A stretch of DNA of 64,000 nt, taken from NCBI RefSeq assembly GCF_001499995.1, contig NZ_LQIU01000002.1:1-64000 (forward strand). The letters are read 5' to 3'. The notes beneath the pieces were generated by a model. The model did no database searches, was not told where the DNA came from, and saw only the letters and a program-made list of their open reading frames with translations. This document shows positions 12,242-20,936 of the stretch, in pieces. This DNA comes from Mycobacterium sp. IS-1496 (lineage in GTDB: Bacteria > Actinomycetota > Actinomycetes > Mycobacteriales > Mycobacteriaceae). Every line of letters begins with the position of its first letter. Within the stretch, counting starts at the first letter, position 1. The position numbers were made by a program, and so were the translations under genes.

Positions 12242-12315
12242 CAGATCGACCCGTCGATGTCACGTCGACGGCGCGTCATCGGGCGCCTTGCCTGCCGAGA
12301 CCGGGGACAAACCCG

Positions 12316-12328
12316 TAAGCTCGATGAG
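12316..12328 (+). promoter_or_regulatory. Leaderless-type -10 element for pafA
   Basis: TAAGCT at 12316-12321 is followed by seven bases and then GTG 12329. The same hexamer with the same spacing precedes pafB (19943-19955). The spacing predicts a leaderless mRNA. The 87 bases between iclR and pafA show no convincing T-tailed terminator. Confidence 0.45.
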
Positions 12329-13687
12329 GTGCAGCGACGAATCATGGGGATCGAGACCGAATTCGGTGTGACCTGCACGTTCCATGGCCACCGCCGGTTG
12401 AGTCCGGACGAGGTCGCCCGGTATCTGTTCCGGCGGGTGGTGTCGTGGGGCCGCAGTTCGAACGTCTTTCTGCGCAATGGCGCGCGGTTGTATCTCGACG
12501 TCGGGTCCCACCCGGAGTACGCCACCGCCGAATGCGACAACCTGATCCAGTTGGTCACCCACGACCGGGCCGGCGAGCGGGTGCTCGAAGACCTGCTCAT
12601 CGACGCCGAGCAGCGGTTGGCCGACGAGGGCATCGGCGGCGACATCTATCTGTTCAAGAACAACACCGACTCGGCGGGCAACTCCTACGGCTGCCACGAG
12701 AACTACCTGATCGTCCGTGCCGGGGAGTTCTCCCGGATCTCCGATGTCCTGCTGCCCTTCCTGGTCACCCGTCAGTTGATCTGCGGTGCGGGCAAGGTGC
12801 TGCAGACACCCAAGGCGGCGACGTTCTGCCTCAGTCAGCGCGCCGAGCACATCTGGGAGGGCGTCTCGTCGGCGACCACCCGGTCCCGGCCGATCATCAA
12901 CACCCGCGACGAACCGCACGCCGACGCCGAGAAGTACCGCCGGCTGCACGTGATCGTCGGCGACTCGAACATGTGCGAGTCCACCACCATGCTGAAGGTG
13001 GGCACCGCCTCGTTGGTGCTGGAGATGATCGAGGCGGGGGTCCCATTCCGCGACTTCTCGCTGGACAACCCGATCCGGGCCATCCGCGAGGTCAGCCACG
13101 ACCTGACGGGGCGTCGGCCGGTGCGGCTGGCCGGCGGGCGGCAGGCCAGCGCGCTCGACATCCAGCGCGAGTACTACTCGCGCGCGGTCGACTACCTGCA
13201 GACCCGGGAGCCGAACTCGCAGATCGAGCAGGTCGTGGACCTGTGGGGCCGCCAGCTCGACGCGGTGGAGAGCCAGGACTTCGCGAAGGTCGACACCGAG
13301 ATCGACTGGGTGATCAAGCGCAAGCTGTTCCAGCGCTACCAGGACCGCTACAACATGGAGCTGTCCGACCCGAAGATCAGTCAACTCGACCTGGCCTACC
13401 ACGACATCAAGCGCGGTCGCGGGGTCTTCGACTTGTTGCAGCGCAAGGGCCTGGCCGCGCGTATCACCACCGACGAGGACATCGACGCCGCCGTCGACAC
13501 ACCGCCGCAGACCACGCGCGCGAAGCTGCGCGGTGAGTTCATCAGCGCCGCACAGGAAGCCGGCCGGGACTTCACGGTCGACTGGGTGCACCTGAAGCTC
13601 AACGACCAGGCGCAGCGCACGGTCCTGTGCAAGGACCCCTTTCGCTCGGTCGACGAGCGCGTCAAGCGGCTCATCGCCAGCATGTAG
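12329..13687 (+). CDS. pafA: Pup--protein ligase (proteasome accessory factor A)
   Basis: Ligates prokaryotic ubiquitin-like protein (Pup) to lysines of target proteins using ATP, marking them for the mycobacterial proteasome. From GTG 12329 the protein is 452 residues, which I recall as the length of M. tuberculosis PafA. It opens [20 protein letters not shown]; the GIETEFG motif carries a metal-binding Glu of this glutamine-synthetase-like fold. The longer open frame upstream encodes basic sequence absent from PafA. In M. tuberculosis pafA, pafB and pafC are adjacent; here about 6.3 kb separates pafA from pafB. The pup-prcBA and dop genes are not in this window. Confidence 0.97.
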
Positions 13688-13724: not shown

Positions 13725-13875
13725 TCGAGCCGTGCTCAGGTAACATTTGCTGGACGATTCGTGAACGGGTGGCCGAGACGTGTCCCGAGGCAGATGAGGG
13801 TTTGATCTTGTCGGCGAAGCACTTGCTGGGCGGTTCGACGGCAGGGCTTCGCGCACTGGGTGAGTGGGGGTGGCG

Positions 13876-14712
13876 ATGACCGAGTTGAGAGTCAACACCG
13901 GCGAGCTGGCTAACGGGGGGAACGGTCTGGTCAGCGGCGCACAGGCCATCCCGGAGCCGTTGCAACCGCTGGTGACCACGGGCACGGATGCGCTCTCACT
14001 CGCACTGACCGCGCGGACGAACGAGGTCGAGCTGCCGCTGATCGAGGGCATGCCCAAGACGAAGGCCGAAGCGCTCGCGACGGCGGAGAACATCATCCGA
14101 GCCGCAGCGCTCTACGAGCAGAGCGATCAACAGATCGCTGACCAGGTGCGCAAGGCGCTCGCGGAACTGGACGGCGCTCGAGCTGCGGGCGGTGGCGGGG
14201 GTGCTGCGGGCGGTGGCGCCGGTGCCGGTGCTGTCGGAGCTGCGACCGGCGGCGTCGGCGGGGGAGCCACGGGTGCCGCGGGCGCGGGCCAGGACATGGG
14301 TCAGATGGGCCAGATGATGGGCATGCCGATGCAGTTGGCGCAGCAGGCCGCTCAGATACCGATGCAGCTCGCCGGGATGGCGATGCAGATTCCGCAGGGG
14401 ATCATGCAGGGCGTTCAGAGCGGAATGCAGCAGGTCGGCCAGATGACGAGCCAGTTCGGTGAGATGGGCGGCGCCGAGAAGGACGAGAAGGCAAAGCTCG
14501 AAGAGGAACTCCGCGAGAAGGAAGAAGCGCCGGCCGAAGAGGGGGAGCCGGAGGGTGCGGCACCCGCCGAGGGGGCAGGGGAGCGTGCGCCCGAATATGC
14601 CCCGCGGCACGCGGCTCCGGAGACGCCTCAAGCGGATGCCGCGCCGGAGGCCCCGCCGCCCCGGCCGAAGCCCGCGCCCACCAGGCCTGCTGATTCGTCG
14701 ATTGTGTTGTGA
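13876..14712 (+). CDS. Type VII secretion substrate-like protein with YxxxD motif
   Basis: 278-residue protein of unknown function, first of a three-gene cassette. Residues 1-100 look like a helical hairpin of the DUF2580/Esp kind and end with Y80-E-Q-S-D84, which fits the YxxxD/E export signal of mycobacterial ESX substrates. A Gly/Ala-rich spacer follows, then a Met/Gln-rich amphipathic stretch (about 135-195; MGQMGQMMGMPMQLAQQ), then a charged Glu/Lys coiled-coil-like segment and an Ala/Pro-rich tail. ATG 13876 is preferred over GTG 13864 because GGGGGTGG sits just before it. The family assignment is by pattern only. Confidence 0.7.
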   Translation: MTELRVNTGELANGGNGLVSGAQAIPEPLQPLVTTGTDALSLALTARTNEVELPLIEGMPKTKAEALATAENIIRAAALYEQSDQQIADQVRKALAELDGARAAGGGGGAAGGGAGAGAVGAATGGVGGGATGAAGAGQDMGQMGQMMGMPMQLAQQAAQIPMQLAGMAMQIPQGIMQGVQSGMQQVGQMTSQFGEMGGAEKDEKAKLEEELREKEEAPAEEGEPEGAAPAEGAGERAPEYAPRHAAPETPQADAAPEAPPPRPKPAPTRPADSSIVL

Positions 14713-14743
14713 CTGTGGGTGTTTCTGACGCGAAGGTGCGCAT

Positions 14744-15931
14744 ATGAGTCTGCCTCCCCCTCCGAATCCGTACGGTGGCCAGCCGCCCTATGGCGGCCAG
14801 CCGCAGTTCGGAGGTCAGCCGCAGTGGGGTGGTCAGCAACCGGGTGCGGGTGAGGGGCAGTTCAGCGGACCGCCGCCGTGGGGCCCTCCGCCGCAGCAAC
14901 CGCAGTGGGGCGGTCCGCCGCCCGGTCCGCCACCGCAGAGGGGCGGCAACGGGAAGTGGATTCTGGGCGGCGTCATCGTGTTGCTGGTCGTCGCGCTGGC
15001 GGTGACGCTGACGATCTTGGTGACGCGCGACGGTTCCGATGGGAATTCGCCGACGCCGCCGGGGGACGGGCAGGCGTCGGAGTTCGCGAGTGCGAACGAC
15101 ACCGGACCGGTCAACATCATCACCGAGGATCCGACGTGTGATGCGTGGGGGCGGGTGTCCCGGGACTACAGCCAATCCACAGAAGCCGCTGGGTGGGCGG
15201 CTCGTAACGCCGCGGTCCCTGCTTCTGGATGGACCCCCGAACAGCGTGCAATGTACGAGTCTGTTGGCGAATCGATGATGGACGCTTCAAACAAGGTCGA
15301 GAACCTCGTGAAGCTGACCACTCACCGTGCAATGCGCGAGCTTTATCAGCAATTTCGCGCTTACTCACGTAGCTTCGTCGGCCGCATACCGTCCTATGAG
15401 CCGAAAGACGACGATCTTGCCGTAGTCGTCGACAACTTAGCGTCCGGTCTCGCCATGATTTGCTCCGCCGCCGATTACGGTTCGGCGCAGGCGGTCTCAC
15501 CGCTTGTCCAAGCCGCTCCCGATCCCTCCAATACGCCATCGTTGCCGGTCGATGCGTCAGAAGATTACCAGTTCCTCAGCGCTTCCAGTCCCTCGTGCAG
15601 TGCCTGGGATGCCGCAGCGAAGGGCTTTTCCTTGGCTGTCCGGGATTGGCGGGAGATAGATGCGAATATTGCTGCGGTTGACTGGACGCCGAACCAACGT
15701 CGGGTAATAGACGAGACTATTCCCGTCATGATGTCGAATGCAGACACGCTGGTTCGATTGGGCGGCACTAGCGAAAATGCGGTTTTCGAAGACTTCGCTT
15801 ATCTCGCGGCGCAGTACCGTCGCGGTTACGCAGCCGCCTTGCCCGACTACACCAGCGCTGACAACTATCTCTCGGCCGCGTCAACATATGTTGTCAATGC
15901 GGTGTTGTGGGCGTGCAAGGCGGCGCAATGA
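14744..15931 (+). CDS. Proline-rich single-pass membrane protein with duplicated outer domain
   Basis: 395 residues, function unknown. The N-terminal 65 residues are a Pro/Gly/Gln-rich cytosolic region with GGQPxxGG repeats. A single membrane segment follows (about residues 69-90, WILGGVIVLLVVALAVTLTI). The outer part holds two related units of about 110 residues. Each begins with a Cys followed by x-A-W, has a central WTP-x-QR motif (WTPEQR, WTPNQR), and ends with a Cys near the C-terminus, suggesting one disulfide per unit. The last four bases overlap the next start (ATGA). From about 15130 base composition falls sharply, so the outer domain appears foreign relative to the N-terminal part. 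Confidence 0.72.
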   Translation: MSLPPPPNPYGGQPPYGGQPQFGGQPQWGGQQPGAGEGQFSGPPPWGPPPQQPQWGGPPPGPPPQRGGNGKWILGGVIVLLVVALAVTLTILVTRDGSDGNSPTPPGDGQASEFASANDTGPVNIITEDPTCDAWGRVSRDYSQSTEAAGWAARNAAVPASGWTPEQRAMYESVGESMMDASNKVENLVKLTTHRAMRELYQQFRAYSRSFVGRIPSYEPKDDDLAVVVDNLASGLAMICSAADYGSAQAVSPLVQAAPDPSNTPSLPVDASEDYQFLSASSPSCSAWDAAAKGFSLAVRDWREIDANIAAVDWTPNQRRVIDETIPVMMSNADTLVRLGGTSENAVFEDFAYLAAQYRRGYAAALPDYTSADNYLSAASTYVVNAVLWACKAAQ

Positions 15932-18225
15932 TTGGGCGAGCCGCATCCACGGAGAAGCCAACCGGCCACTACGCGGCTGAGATGACTGGCCCAGGTGCCT
16001 GGCCTGAGACCGATGAAAGCGTGTTTACTAACCGCGCGAGTTCGCTCCGTGAGACTCTCTCAAGTCTTGAAGGGGCACGCCAAAGTTGGGCGTCGAAACA
16101 AGCCGCCTTGTTTAATGGGATCCACATCTGGTCGGGTGGGGCGTCCGATAAGGCAGGAGCGCGGGTCTCGAAGAGCACTGGATCGATGGAACTTCACAAG
16201 CAACAATTGAGTGATGCGATCGCATGGTGTGATCGCGCCACAGAACACATCAGTGGAGCGAAGGAAGCTATCGGCGGGAACGTTCGGAGCGCTCAAGAAA
16301 CGATCGCAGAAATGGAGCGGACTGCTGCAGAGCAGAATAAGGACGCTACCTATGCGATTCGGTCACTCGTGAATGACAAATATATGGAGAACTTCAACAC
16401 CCTTAGCGATCTCGCTGAGAAGTTGGGTTACGAGCGCGGTGTTCCCCAAGCGCCTTATGACGAGGACGACCTAACGGATCCAACGAAAGACAACGGCGAA
16501 CATACCGTGAATGCCGTCTCGCATCTAACTAAGCCTGTGGACGGTGACCGGATCTCAGCTTCACTCCCTCAACCAGGGTCTGCGCTTACGCCACCAGCGC
16601 CGCAACCAGAAAAGGTTGTCGATCGGCAGTTCGTCTCAAACTCTGTGGCACAGGTCCCGAGAACTCAGGGCCCCACGCTGCAAGGCCGCGGAGGAGTCGA
16701 CGGTGAAGTTCTTACCTCTGCTGCATCCGGGCCCGCCCCGGTTGCGCCACCTACTCCGATCTCAGGTAAACCCCCTATCTCCGCGCCGCCTCCATCAATC
16801 AGTCCGCAAGCGCCGACTGTGCATTCCGGCTCCGCGCCATCCCCATCGCCTCTGGGCAGCGGGTCGTCTGCGCCCTCAGCGCCGAGCCTCGCCGGAGGCG
16901 GTGCCAGCGGTGCATCCGGACTCGGCGGCAGCAGCGGCGGCTCGTTGGGAGGCGACACGTCGAGCAGTCCGATCGGCGACAGCCCGTCCTCGGTGGGCGA
17001 CCAGCCAAGCGTCGACCCGACCCAGGGCGCCTCGGGTCCGACGTCCGGCTCCGGTGGACAGCAGCCCTACCAGCCGCCGCCGATCGCGGACAGGCTGTCG
17101 AATATCGGACCACCGATGCAACCGGCCTCCGCGCCGATAGCCCCACCGGCCGCGCCGGCGGAGGTTGCGCCGCCGGCTTCGCCTGCTCCCTCGAGTCCGG
17201 TGACAAGCCAAGCGGCCCACGCGCCGGTGGCCCCCGTAGCCCCGCCGTCTGCCGGCGGTGGTGTTCCGATGTCGGGCGGTCCGGCCATGCCTCCGCCACC
17301 CATGCCGTTGGGTCCGCCACCCACACCGTCGCCCGCCGCACCGGTCGTCCCTCCATCCGCCGCACCACCTCCGGTGGCTCCTTCAGCCTCGAGCGCAGGG
17401 TCGGTGGTCGGTGCACCCGCTCCCGTGCCGGTGTCGGCGGCTCGCGCTGAGCGCGATGCCATCACCAGCTCGATGCGTAGGCAGTCAACCGGTGACCCGG
17501 TGCAGGTCGCGCGGCGAGTCGCCGCGGCCCTAAATGCCTCCGAGACAATGGATTTCGGTTTCTTTTGGGCTACCGGGGTCACGAAGGACGGCACCATCCT
17601 CGTCGCAAACAGCTACGGCATCGGCTACATCCCAGAAGGGGTGAAGCTGCCCGAGGGCGTGAAGTTGGTCAGCGCCGACGAGTCGATCCCGATCGAGGAT
17701 CGCGCCAAGTGGGCGACATTCCCCATGCTCGCGCTGCACGGCTGGGCTCAGCACCACGACGTCCCGCTGCGTGCCGTGGTCGCGACGGCCGAGCAGTTCG
17801 ACGGCTTCGATCCGGGGGCGGCGCGCGTCATCCTCAAACCCGATGACATCCCGGAGCGAGGCGACATGGCGGGCCGTTCCCGCCTTGAGGTCATCGCCCC
17901 CAGCGCCGCGCGCCAACTCGACTCAGTCGGCGACCCGATGCTCGGTGAACTCCTGCCACCTGCACCCGCGGACGCGACCCCTCCCGCCGACAAATCGATG
18001 ATGCTGTGGTTCGACGTGATGAAGCCGCTGATGAGCACGTCAGCGGATCGCGGACCTGCGCATCTGGAAGCGATGGTCACTTACGCGAACCACGCGCAGG
18101 AGCTTGCTCTGCACAGAGCGCAGACAGCCGCAGATGCCCCGGCGCAACGGGCAGCCATCGCCGACTGGGTCTACTGGCAGCACATCAGCGTGATGAGCAG
18201 CGACGCCATCGTCGTCAAGCAGTAG
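15928..18225 (+). CDS. Large WxG/proline-rich protein with Rv3899c/Rv2082-like C-terminal domain
   Basis: 765 residues. The N-terminal 200 residues are helical and contain W68-S-G70 in a WxG100-like setting followed by a long second helix. About residues 210-500 are a low-complexity Pro/Ala/Ser/Gly linker. The last 250 residues form a separate folded domain beginning near DAITSSMRRQSTGDPVQVARR, with blocks such as FWATGVTKDGTILVANSYG and FPMLALHGWAQHHDVPLRA. From memory this C-terminal domain resembles M. tuberculosis Rv3899c/Rv2082, proteins of unknown function; this needs an alignment. ATG 15928, coupled to the preceding stop, is preferred over GTG 15907. The first 750 bases have low G+C and rare codons. 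Confidence 0.7.
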   Translation: MIGRAASTEKPTGHYAAEMTGPGAWPETDESVFTNRASSLRETLSSLEGARQSWASKQAALFNGIHIWSGGASDKAGARVSKSTGSMELHKQQLSDAIAWCDRATEHISGAKEAIGGNVRSAQETIAEMERTAAEQNKDATYAIRSLVNDKYMENFNTLSDLAEKLGYERGVPQAPYDEDDLTDPTKDNGEHTVNAVSHLTKPVDGDRISASLPQPGSALTPPAPQPEKVVDRQFVSNSVAQVPRTQGPTLQGRGGVDGEVLTSAASGPAPVAPPTPISGKPPISAPPPSISPQAPTVHSGSAPSPSPLGSGSSAPSAPSLAGGGASGASGLGGSSGGSLGGDTSSSPIGDSPSSVGDQPSVDPTQGASGPTSGSGGQQPYQPPPIADRLSNIGPPMQPASAPIAPPAAPAEVAPPASPAPSSPVTSQAAHAPVAPVAPPSAGGGVPMSGGPAMPPPPMPLGPPPTPSPAAPVVPPSAAPPPVAPSASSAGSVVGAPAPVPVSAARAERDAITSSMRRQSTGDPVQVARRVAAALNASETMDFGFFWATGVTKDGTILVANSYGIGYIPEGVKLPEGVKLVSADESIPIEDRAKWATFPMLALHGWAQHHDVPLRAVVATAEQFDGFDPGAARVILKPDDIPERGDMAGRSRLEVIAPSAARQLDSVGDPMLGELLPPAPADATPPADKSMMLWFDVMKPLMSTSADRGPAHLEAMVTYANHAQELALHRAQTAADAPAQRAAIADWVYWQHISVMSSDAIVVKQ

Positions 18226-18378
18226 GCGGGGCAATTCGTCGATGCGCGGTTGGGACTGACATGGCGATGGCGAACGTTCGCGTCGGGTAGCGGCACTGCG
18301 GCGTGTCGAGTACGTGGCGTTGGAGACGGGGAAAGTGCGGGGCCCGGAATTGTCAGACCCCTCTGCTTTTATGGGGTC

Positions 18379-19682
18379 ATGTCCTCGAGCATGGCGTCCG
18401 GCGCGGTGGTGGTGCGCCCCATCGACCGCCTTGAGGTGCTGTTCGAGGAGCTGGCGGAGTTGATCGGTCAGCGCAATGCGATCGACGGCCGCATCGTGGA
18501 GATCGCCGCCGAGATCGACCACGACGAGCTGTGTGGGATGACGGGTGCGAAGTCGGTGGCGCATCTGATGGCGTGGAAGACCGGGTCGTCGTCGAGGAAC
18601 GGTAAGACCATCGCCGCCATCGCGCACCGGATCGCGGAGTTCCCCCAGTGCGTGCAGGCGCTGCGGGAGGGCCGGTTGTCGCTGGATCAGGTCGGGGTGA
18701 TCGCCGAGGGCGCGGGGGCAGGGTCTGATGAGCATTACGCCGAGCTGGCTCGAAGCGCCACGGTCAATCAGTTACGGACCGCGATCAAACTCGAACCCCG
18801 ACCCGAACCGAACCCGAGCCCGAACCTCGGGCCGACACTGACATCCCGCCTGAGCCGGTGCCGGTGCCCGAGCCGCGATCATCGGTCACCAAGACCTCCG
18901 ATGAGCAGTACACCTACTGGCACATCGCGATGCCGCATGCCGAGGCGGCGGTGTTCGACGCCGCCCTGCAGTCCCATCACGACGGGTTGGTCGCGCAGTG
19001 GAAACACGACCACGACAACCCCGACGACACCGACAGCCCGGGCGCGGGGCGGCCGCCGTTCCCCACTCTCGGCGATGCGTTCAATAGCCTGGTCGAGGCC
19101 GGGTGGGACGCCGAGGCCGCTCGCCGCCCGCACGGGCATCGCACCACCGTGGTCGTGCACCTCGACCTCACAGCCCGTATCGCCGCCCTGCACCTGGGGC
19201 CGCTGCTCTCGGATGCCGATCGCCGCTACCTGACCTGTGACGCCACCTGCGAAGTGTGGTTCGAACGCGCCGGACAGCCCATCGGCTCGGGCCGCGCCAC
19301 CCGGTTGATCAGCCGCCGGCTGCGTCGCGCCCTGGAACATCGCCACCCCACCTGCGCGGTCCCCGGGTGTGGGGCCACCCGCGGGCTGCACGCCCACCAC
19401 ATCCGGCACTGGGAAGACGGCGGCCGCACCGACCTGGACAACCTCGTGCTGGTCTGCCCCTACCACCACCGGCTGCACCACAAAGGCGTCATCACCATCA
19501 CCGGACCCGCCTCCCGACTCACCGTGACCGACGGCACCGGCCGCGCACTGCACTCCGGATCACTGGCCCGCCCGCCGAATCAGCCCCCGCCCACGGTCGC
19601 CCCCTATCAGGGACCCAGCGGGGAGCGTGCCGACTGGTGGTGGTACCCGCCATACCAACCCCCACCACCAACGAAGAACTGA
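18379..19682 (+). pseudogene. DUF222/HNH endonuclease (13E12 family), frameshifted
   Basis: Two reading frames together make one 13E12-type protein. Codons from ATG 18379 give the DUF222 part (LEELAELIGQRNAIDGRIVE... to QLRTAIKLEPRPEP). After about 18808 the homologous reading continues in another frame (EPEPEPRADTD, then TKTSDEQYTYWHIAMP) through to the HNH motif CAVPGCGATRGLHAHHIRHW and CPYHHRLHHKG. Restoring one C in the GAACC(C)GAACCC repeat near 18808 would rejoin them. In mycobacteria these genes are repetitive and probably mobile, and this one sits at the edge of the accessory block. A sequencing error or programmed slippage are alternatives to a true pseudogene. Confidence 0.82.
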
Positions 19683-19955: not shown

Positions 19956-20936
19956 GTGGCGACCTCCAAAGTCGAACGGCTGATGAACCTGGTCATCGCG
20001 CTGCTCTCGACGCGCACGTTCATCACCGCCGACCGCATTCGGCAGGTCGTCGCCGGCTACGCCGACAGCCCCAGCGACGAGGCGTTCTCCCGCATGTTCG
20101 AGCGGGACAAGAACGAGCTCCGCGACCTCGGCATCCCGCTGGAGACCGGGCGCGTCTCGCAGTTCGACCCCACCGAGGGCTACCGCATCAACCGCGACGC
20201 CTACGCCCTGCCCGCCGTCGAACTCACCGGCGACGAAGCCGCCGCCGTCGCGGTCGCCACCCAGCTGTGGGAATCACCCGAACTCATCACCGCCACCCAG
20301 GGTGCCCTGCTCAAGCTGCGCGCGGCCGGCGTGGACGTCGACCCCGCCGACGGCGTCGCCATCTCCACGGCGACCCTGCCCGGTGTCCGCGGCAACGAAG
20401 AGACACTGCGAACCCTGCTCCAGGCCATCGACACCGGTCAGGCTGTCCAGTTCGGCCATCGCAGGGACCGCTCCGAGCCCTACACCACCCGCACCGTCGA
20501 ACCCTGGGGCGTCGTCACCCACCGCGGCCGTTGGTACCTGGTCGGCCACGACCGCGACCGCGACGCCCCCCGCACCTTCCGCCTGTCGCGCATCGCCGAC
20601 GACGTCACCACCATCGGCCCGCCCGGCGCGGTCCACAAACCCCACGATGTCGACCTTCGCGAACTGGTCCACCGCGCCGTCGCCGAGTGGCCCACCGGCG
20701 CCCAGGCCCGCGTCTGGGTCGCCGACGGCCGCGCCACCGCCCTGCGCCGCCAGGCCATCGTCGAAGGCCCGATGACCCTCGGCGGCCGCGCCGGCGAGGT
20801 GGTGACCGTCGAGATCGGCATGTTCGACCGGCTGGCCCGCGAGGTCGCCAGCTACGGCGCCGACGCCGTCGCGCTCGAACCGCAGTCGCTGCGCGACGAC
20901 GTCATCGCCCGACTGAGAGCGCAGGCCACCGCATGA
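19956..20936 (+). CDS. pafB: Transcriptional activator PafB (HTH-WYL)
   Basis: 326-residue WYL-domain regulator. With PafC it forms the activator of the LexA-independent mycobacterial DNA-damage response. An N-terminal winged helix (about residues 1-70, opening ATSKVERLMNLVIALLSTRTF) is followed by a WYL effector region (about 140-230) and the WCX extension. The WYL core is visible as RTVEPWGVVTHRGRWYLVGHDRDR. Start GTG 19956 matches the known PafB N-terminus. Its stop overlaps the pafC start (ATGA). Confidence 0.95.
   Translation: MATSKVERLMNLVIALLSTRTFITADRIRQVVAGYADSPSDEAFSRMFERDKNELRDLGIPLETGRVSQFDPTEGYRINRDAYALPAVELTGDEAAAVAVATQLWESPELITATQGALLKLRAAGVDVDPADGVAISTATLPGVRGNEETLRTLLQAIDTGQAVQFGHRRDRSEPYTTRTVEPWGVVTHRGRWYLVGHDRDRDAPRTFRLSRIADDVTTIGPPGAVHKPHDVDLRELVHRAVAEWPTGAQARVWVADGRATALRRQAIVEGPMTLGGRAGEVVTVEIGMFDRLAREVASYGADAVALEPQSLRDDVIARLRAQATA

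Follow-up and report, generated by a model that had tools for sequence, protein, structure and literature searches.

A cassette arranged like the mating-identity locus, between pafA and pafB and apart from ESX-1, in Mycobacterium sp. IS-1496

Introduction

How did three genes related to type VII secretion come to stand between pafA and pafB, and what might they do there? The question is raised by a stretch of 64,000 nucleotides of Mycobacterium sp. IS-1496 (assembly GCF_001499995.1, contig NZ_LQIU01000002.1, positions 1 to 64,000; hereafter the window), in which three genes, here called A, B and C, occupy positions 13876 to 18225. A first-pass annotation had described them as an uncharacterised cassette that splits pafA from pafB and may encode an orphan set of export substrates. 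The split itself is confirmed, the gap between the pafA and pafB matches being no more than 1,104 bp in 38 of the 40 fetched genomes without the trio. As set out below, the block is probably a cassette arranged as in the mating-identity (mid) locus, residing apart from ESX-1, likely moved to its present site and likely serving kin recognition before the transfer of chromosomal DNA.

In M. smegmatis the mid region sits within ESX-1; matching mid bars mating and differing mid permits it. The region was narrowed to Msmeg0069-0071, and by insertion and complementation Msmeg0070 was found to confer self-identity (PMC9040860). Msmeg0070 is a proline-rich protein of 388 amino acids with a membrane segment at residues 67-89, and its gene starts 32 nt after Msmeg0069 (PMC9040860). 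The flanking genes are espJ (msmeg_0069) and espK (msmeg_0071) (PMC8262963; also tabulated in PMC12502791). In the literature found, mycobacterial kin recognition rests on this one gene in one species.

Results

The three genes lie on the forward strand. Gene A (13876..14712, 278 amino acids, with a possible alternative GTG start at 13864) is followed after 31 nt by gene B (14744..15931, 395 amino acids), which overlaps gene C (15928..18225, 765 amino acids) by the four bases ATGA. Common direction, order, spacing and sizes are those of the mid locus (31 against 32 nt; 395 against 388 amino acids), A, B and C holding the positions of Msmeg0069, Msmeg0070 and Msmeg0071. For each gene the genome of 5.29 Mb contains a single full match; further matches to A and B are partial and weak, and C has no other match. 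Against three relatives dN/dS lies at 0.10-0.33 for A, B and C, and the dS values of B and C are close to 1.

Gene C is EspK. Its C-terminal domain (residues 512-765, 17461..18222) matches PDB 8ako chain B with an E value of 3.6e-87 over residues 522-759 (238 residues). PDB 8AKO is the EspK domain solved with EspB, the tip of which is gripped by the domain, the EspB-binding domain of M. tuberculosis EspK, through interface residues including F659, K663 and S667 (PMC9811218). The counterparts in the window are F695, K699 and S703, so that all three contact residues are retained. Of 329 relatives found, 120 were listed; several of these bear the name EspK in their source records, and two the name EccK. 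The Pfam matches to DUF5632 (22.4 bits, cut-off 25) and WXG100_2 (15.7 bits, cut-off 27) both stay below their cut-offs, and no toxin family of Pfam or NCBIfam is matched at E≤1. The protein carries one WxG, W68-S-G70 (16129..16137), a motif present within residues 31-130 in 106 of the 114 listed relatives that are 600 amino acids or longer; YxxxD/E within residues 91-230 occurs in only 11 of these 114. With EspK of M. tuberculosis (Rv3879c) it shares the homologous C-terminal domain, the three contact residues, the WxG N-terminus and a proline-rich linker. It differs in being unlinked to espB, in its hypervariable N-terminus and in overlapping a B gene; according to PMC9040860, genes of this kind went undetected in the M. 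tuberculosis complex. The first-pass annotation had related the C-terminal domain to Rv3899c and Rv2082, which holds at the level of the fold: the domain was tied to Rv3899c, Rv0029 and Rv2082 by a fold comparison made in PMC9811218 with EspK and not with the window protein.

Gene B encodes a protein with an N-terminus rich in proline and glycine, four cysteines and one strongly hydrophobic segment (best 19-residue stretch from residue 73). AlphaFold2 predicts a membrane helix at residues 75-93 (14966..15022, low confidence at this place), followed by two tandem four-helix ectodomains, with pLDDT of at least 90 for 253 of the 395 residues. The cysteines are invariant across 62 aligned proteins (the window and 61 chosen from 120 listed relatives) and are predicted to form the disulfides C132-C240 in repeat 1 (15137..15463, pLDDT mostly over 90) and C285-C391 in repeat 2 (15596..15916); the two repeats align with each other with a score of 115, against 53 for the best of 500 shuffles. 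A Pfam scan of B itself gave no match; of 461 relatives found, all 120 listed bear the precomputed family PF27060. The M. smegmatis protein P0110 (a record without locus tag) is 46% identical to B over the full length. Judged from this protein and the layout, B appears to be a homologue of Msmeg0070, with which it shares the single membrane pass, the richness in proline and the place of the segment (near 73-93 against 67-89).

Gene A is most like EspJ, by its position and the name of one relative and without profile support. The DUF2580 likeness proposed earlier is not borne out, as no Pfam family, whether DUF2580/EspC, WXG100 or other, is matched at E≤1. Among the 120 listed of 267 relatives one is named EspJ, one EspC and two "type VII secretion target", and four have PE in their name, three of them with a precomputed PE domain. 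The only YxxxD, Y80-E-Q-S-D84 (14113..14127), has both Y80 and D84 invariant across 48 aligned proteins (the window and 47 chosen from the 120), and YxxxD/E falls within residues 61-120 in 117 of the 120. The model is poor as a whole (pTM 0.26), with a helical N-terminal domain at residues 1-100 (pLDDT about 66-87). Likeness to EspJ (Rv3878) thus consists of the length of about 280 amino acids, the place ahead of espK and the YxxxD; the names EspC and PE of some relatives and the missing Pfam match set A apart. The reading frames, Y80..D84, the WxG and the single pass of B are all as the first-pass annotation had described them. "Uncharacterised", however, no longer applies to genes of which C is EspK, A is EspJ-like and B resembles Msmeg0070.

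The ESX-1 system of the same genome is on other contigs than the cassette. Contig 35 carries split EccC genes, followed by PPE, EsxB, EsxA, EspI, EccD1, EspL and the end of EspB, which resumes on contig 18, adjoining EccE and a subtilase; the assembly break between the end of contig 35 and the start of contig 18 falls inside espB. Between the matches to EccD1 and EspL (about 334 bp) no match to espJ or espK is found. The corresponding spacing is 14 to 201 bp in G002, G042, G028, G049 and G034 (genomes are given by G number where needed); in the other six such genomes, G014, G052, G011, G040, G039 and G044, the fetched stretch showed no EspL, and the spacing thus covers the first five. The earlier description of ESX-associated genes with a membrane partner and no machinery alongside is borne out. 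Genes of the EspA/EspE family are on contigs 12 and 13 and not in the window; in G042, G052, G049 and G039 one such gene adjoins the cassette or lies within about 2.2 kb of it. Two genes of this family, with PF18879 and TPR_23, are found between espK and pafB in two relatives (L053 5245-7554 and L055 9659-11854).

The EspK C-terminal domain is matched at E≤0.001 in 49 of 60 genomes of the genus, with at least 170 bits in 36, and 40 stretches were fetched around strong matches. At the pafA-pafB site the cassette is found in the window, G002, G042, G014, G052, IS-1742 and GA-2829, with all three genes in seven of the seven loci; the contig of IS-1742 stops short of pafB. The two genomes without the trio in which the gap is wider, G006 and G055, have unrelated inserts there, and the spot may thus be an insertion hotspot; G015, without a pafA-grade match, was excluded from this count. 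The inserts (loci L142 and L128) comprise GAF/ANTAR regulators in G006 and an MFS transporter, a deacetylase and a LacI regulator in G055. In seven further genomes B and espK are away from eccD1 (G028, G011, G040, G039, G044, G049 and G034), in five of them with espJ upstream. In chromosomes assembled as one contig, position numbers place the cassette 2.24 Mb from eccD1 in G002, 0.53 Mb from it in G011 and 0.27 Mb in G039. The neighbours at the further sites differ, including UppS/DsbH-type genes (G028), an O-methyltransferase (G011, G040), an alpha-amylase (G039) and SMC (G034), and LpqB, which adjoins B-espK in G044 and, in G037, a second copy interrupted by a stop.

In a tree of EspK C-terminal domains with 42 rows the seven paf rows form one clade (support 100/99). 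Ten rows labelled as at other sites need five changes, of which at least two are forced; two of them, G008 and G013 C145, carry this label although their short contigs do not show the site. Left out of this tree are G015 C152 and C667, the weak match of G020 C2 and the split match of G031. The same tree divides 17 from 25 rows at 100/99, and B stands beside espK in all 25 rows of one half and was seen in none of the 17 of the other, of which 14 show at least 1.9 kb on the B side, L079 shows 0.5 kb, and both L085 and L089 break off there. In a tree of pafA and pafB DNA from 46 genomes the six paf genomes again form one clade (100/100), and the detached state needs five changes, at least three of them forced. 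From the trees and the pafA-pafB gaps the simplest reading is one insertion at the paf site and several other moves. The roots were set at the midpoint and the direction of the moves is inferred; the cassette has likely moved to the paf site from a secretion-system locus.

Within the cassette variation is confined to one sharply bounded block, from about residue 141 of B to about residue 321 of EspK (15164..16890). DNA identity to IS-1742 is 96.6% in pafA, 90.6% in A, 92.9% in codons 1-140 of B, 52.9% in the block and 85.2% after it. Identity to G002 inside the block is 72.3%, so that of three relatives compared G002 is the closest to the window within the block, and IS-1742 the closest elsewhere. 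The GC content of the block is 0.587 against 0.697 for the window, and a GC content this low is reached in only two of 623 sliding segments of equal length, the minimum being in the one that begins at 15101. Across the seven paf loci identity is 43-59% for B ectodomains and 41-57% for EspK N-termini, with 80% for both between the window and G002, and rises to 72-90% for EspK C-terminal domains and 70-95% for residues 1-66 of B. Two EspK proteins named M. monacense are 58% identical in the N-terminus and 100% in the C-terminal domain. The same pattern of variable N-terminus and conserved C-terminus is reported between M. smegmatis mating strains (PMC9040860, PMC3706393), Msmeg0071 of two such strains having 27% and 93% identity, respectively (PMC9040860).

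Among the EspK proteins sampled, divergence of the N-terminus is much faster when B accompanies espK. At a C-terminal domain identity of 70-80% the mean N-terminal identity is 45.5% with B (17 pairs) against 69.4% without (14 pairs, range 38-86%), and at 80-90% it is 51.5% with B (7 pairs) against 77.8% without (12 pairs). These means are of non-independent pairs aligning over 100 residues, from the 14 of 17 rows without B and 23 of 25 rows with B that are long enough; the five of 42 rows that are too short, and 13 B-less pairs failing a 60-residue alignment, all of them with L080, were excluded.

B genes also occur in excess of one per genome. At E≤1e-15 B is matched in 95 of 198 genomes of the genus, with at least two matches in 26 of them, seven in G049 and eight in G182; at most nine candidates were scored per genome and some matches are partial. 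Of the 25 fetched loci, six contain a further B match, in one case a partial one. In GA-2829 a second, divergent B follows espK (L003 12359-13504, 49% identical to that of the window). In G049 (G049:C3:140998-147229) and G182 (G182:C1) B genes are in tandem or scattered, and in G016, G022 and G030, without a strong EspK match, B homologues match only from about residue 64 on.

Discussion

The cassette would work as follows. B would be held in the membrane by one helix with two disulfide-closed helical bundles outside, its outer part being a predicted identity tag, the variable half of which would mark self as Msmeg0070 does in M. smegmatis. Recombination between the conserved flanks would swap this outer half as a block and so keep many types in the population. 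The conserved C-terminal domain of EspK would grip EspB and hand it over, in trans, to the remote ESX-1 machinery, and the variable N-terminus of EspK would be paired to B or simply be carried along in the same swapped block. EspJ would provide YxxxD, an export signal lacking from most relatives of EspK; we infer that A, giving YxxxD, and EspK, giving WxG, contribute to one export signal. The "effector or surface complex" suggested by the first-pass annotation is better replaced by a predicted kin-recognition cassette.

Two differences separate the cassette from the mid locus as known. It sits between pafA and pafB, outside esx1. Since Clark et al. (PMC9040860) had mentioned that in some species orthologues of Msmeg0069-0070 are absent from esx1 yet together elsewhere, residence in esx1 is usual for the locus but does not define it. 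Among the nearest relatives of the window, moreover, variability is restricted to one block, with conservation both of EspJ and of the part of B on the cytosolic side.

Several points weigh against assigning an identity role to the cassette. The mating role is known from M. smegmatis alone, and for the species of the window kin recognition is a prediction by analogy. The likeness of B to Msmeg0070 is read from the layout and from P0110. EspJ, variable in M. smegmatis, is 99% identical to that of IS-1742 over the first 100 residues. Gene order is not universal, espJ lying after espK on the opposite strand in G034 and not being found in G044. In M. smegmatis disruption of Msmeg0071 left compatibility unchanged, and identity persisted after deletion of eccCb and of esxBA (PMC9040860), so that EspK and ESX-1 export may lie outside the identity signal. 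Finally, B ectodomain and EspK N-terminus identities correlate with r 0.78 over 21 pairs, which falls to 0.05 on removal of one pair, and the partial r of 0.24 (as high in 6 of 2000 permutations) falls to 0.13 without the window and G002; correlation was for this reason rejected as proof of co-evolution of the two parts.

A bolder form of the proposal, which we regard as doubtful, sees in the variable outer half of B a recognition partner matched to the variable EspK N-terminus: EspK exported by ESX-1 would display this N-terminus to neighbours, to be read as self by the cognate B, spare B genes in arrays would widen the kin range, and the cassette could wander between chromosomal sites as a self-contained unit working in trans with ESX-1.

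The alternative that survives best, although we think it unlikely, is that the genes are a displaced set of ESX-1 substrates and chaperone (EspJ, and EspK with a membrane helper) serving EspB and export of the EspE/EspF type and having no part in identity, with phage or predator pressure on exposed proteins behind their variability. Work on M. marinum assigns EspB/EspK and EspJ to Group II of the substrates, which is required for the export of Group III and for EspE/EspF (PMC13192266, PMC13203967), and both the retained EspB contacts and the EspA/EspE-family genes beside some of the cassettes are in keeping with this. Against it stand the demonstrated identity role of the M. smegmatis B homologue, exerted even without eccCb or esxBA (PMC9040860), and the better conserved N-terminus of EspK proteins without B. 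Far less probable is an antagonism system, in which the variable part of EspK would kill or inhibit and B genes, alone or arrayed, would give immunity. The extra B genes would suit such a system, but EspK matches no toxin family of Pfam or NCBIfam at E≤1 and its variable part is the WxG N-terminus and not the C-terminal tip. That the cassette is the decaying relic of a chance insertion, as its place off the usual locus and beside a gene split over two frames might suggest, is hardly credible given three open frames with dN/dS well below one and all three genes in the seven sampled loci of the clade. A kin-recognition cassette is thus the reading we prefer.

No paper was found that joins espJ, espK and pafA, most subscription papers being outside the literature searched, and the accessible texts gave no description of the paf site, of any link that joins B with the N-terminus of EspK in different species, or of B arrays. 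New here are the paf site, the spread of the moves, the edges of the block and the B arrays, orthologues outside esx1 being known from PMC9040860. In the paf clade the whole cassette lives apart from ESX-1, and B-espK does so at further sites in other species, with a mapped variable block and spare membrane genes; the split between identity and secretion thereby becomes directly testable. Reports of espJ and espK as missing in fast growers (PMC6917791, PMC8217490) may partly reflect relocations.

Neighbouring genes

To the left the cassette is preceded by pafA (12257..13687, forward strand; Pfam Pup_ligase, E 2.8e-171) and to the right it is followed, on the same strand, by pafB (19956..20936), with WYL and WCX domains. 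A scan for related loci returned two loci only. The interval between C and pafB contains a DUF222-HNH gene that the first-pass annotation had not mentioned and which we take to be of the 13E12 type; it is split over two overlapping forward frames (18250..19682; open reading frames 18250-19233 and 18858-19682), of which the downstream one matches DUF222 (E 1.7e-27) and HNH (E 1.5e-8) in Pfam. At the corresponding place in G002 this gene is missing, the pafB match starting 77 bp past the espK match, and since pafB there directly succeeds espK the gene was rejected as carrier of the cassette. An IS110 gene adjoins the copy in G011, a single case, and was likewise not retained as carrier.

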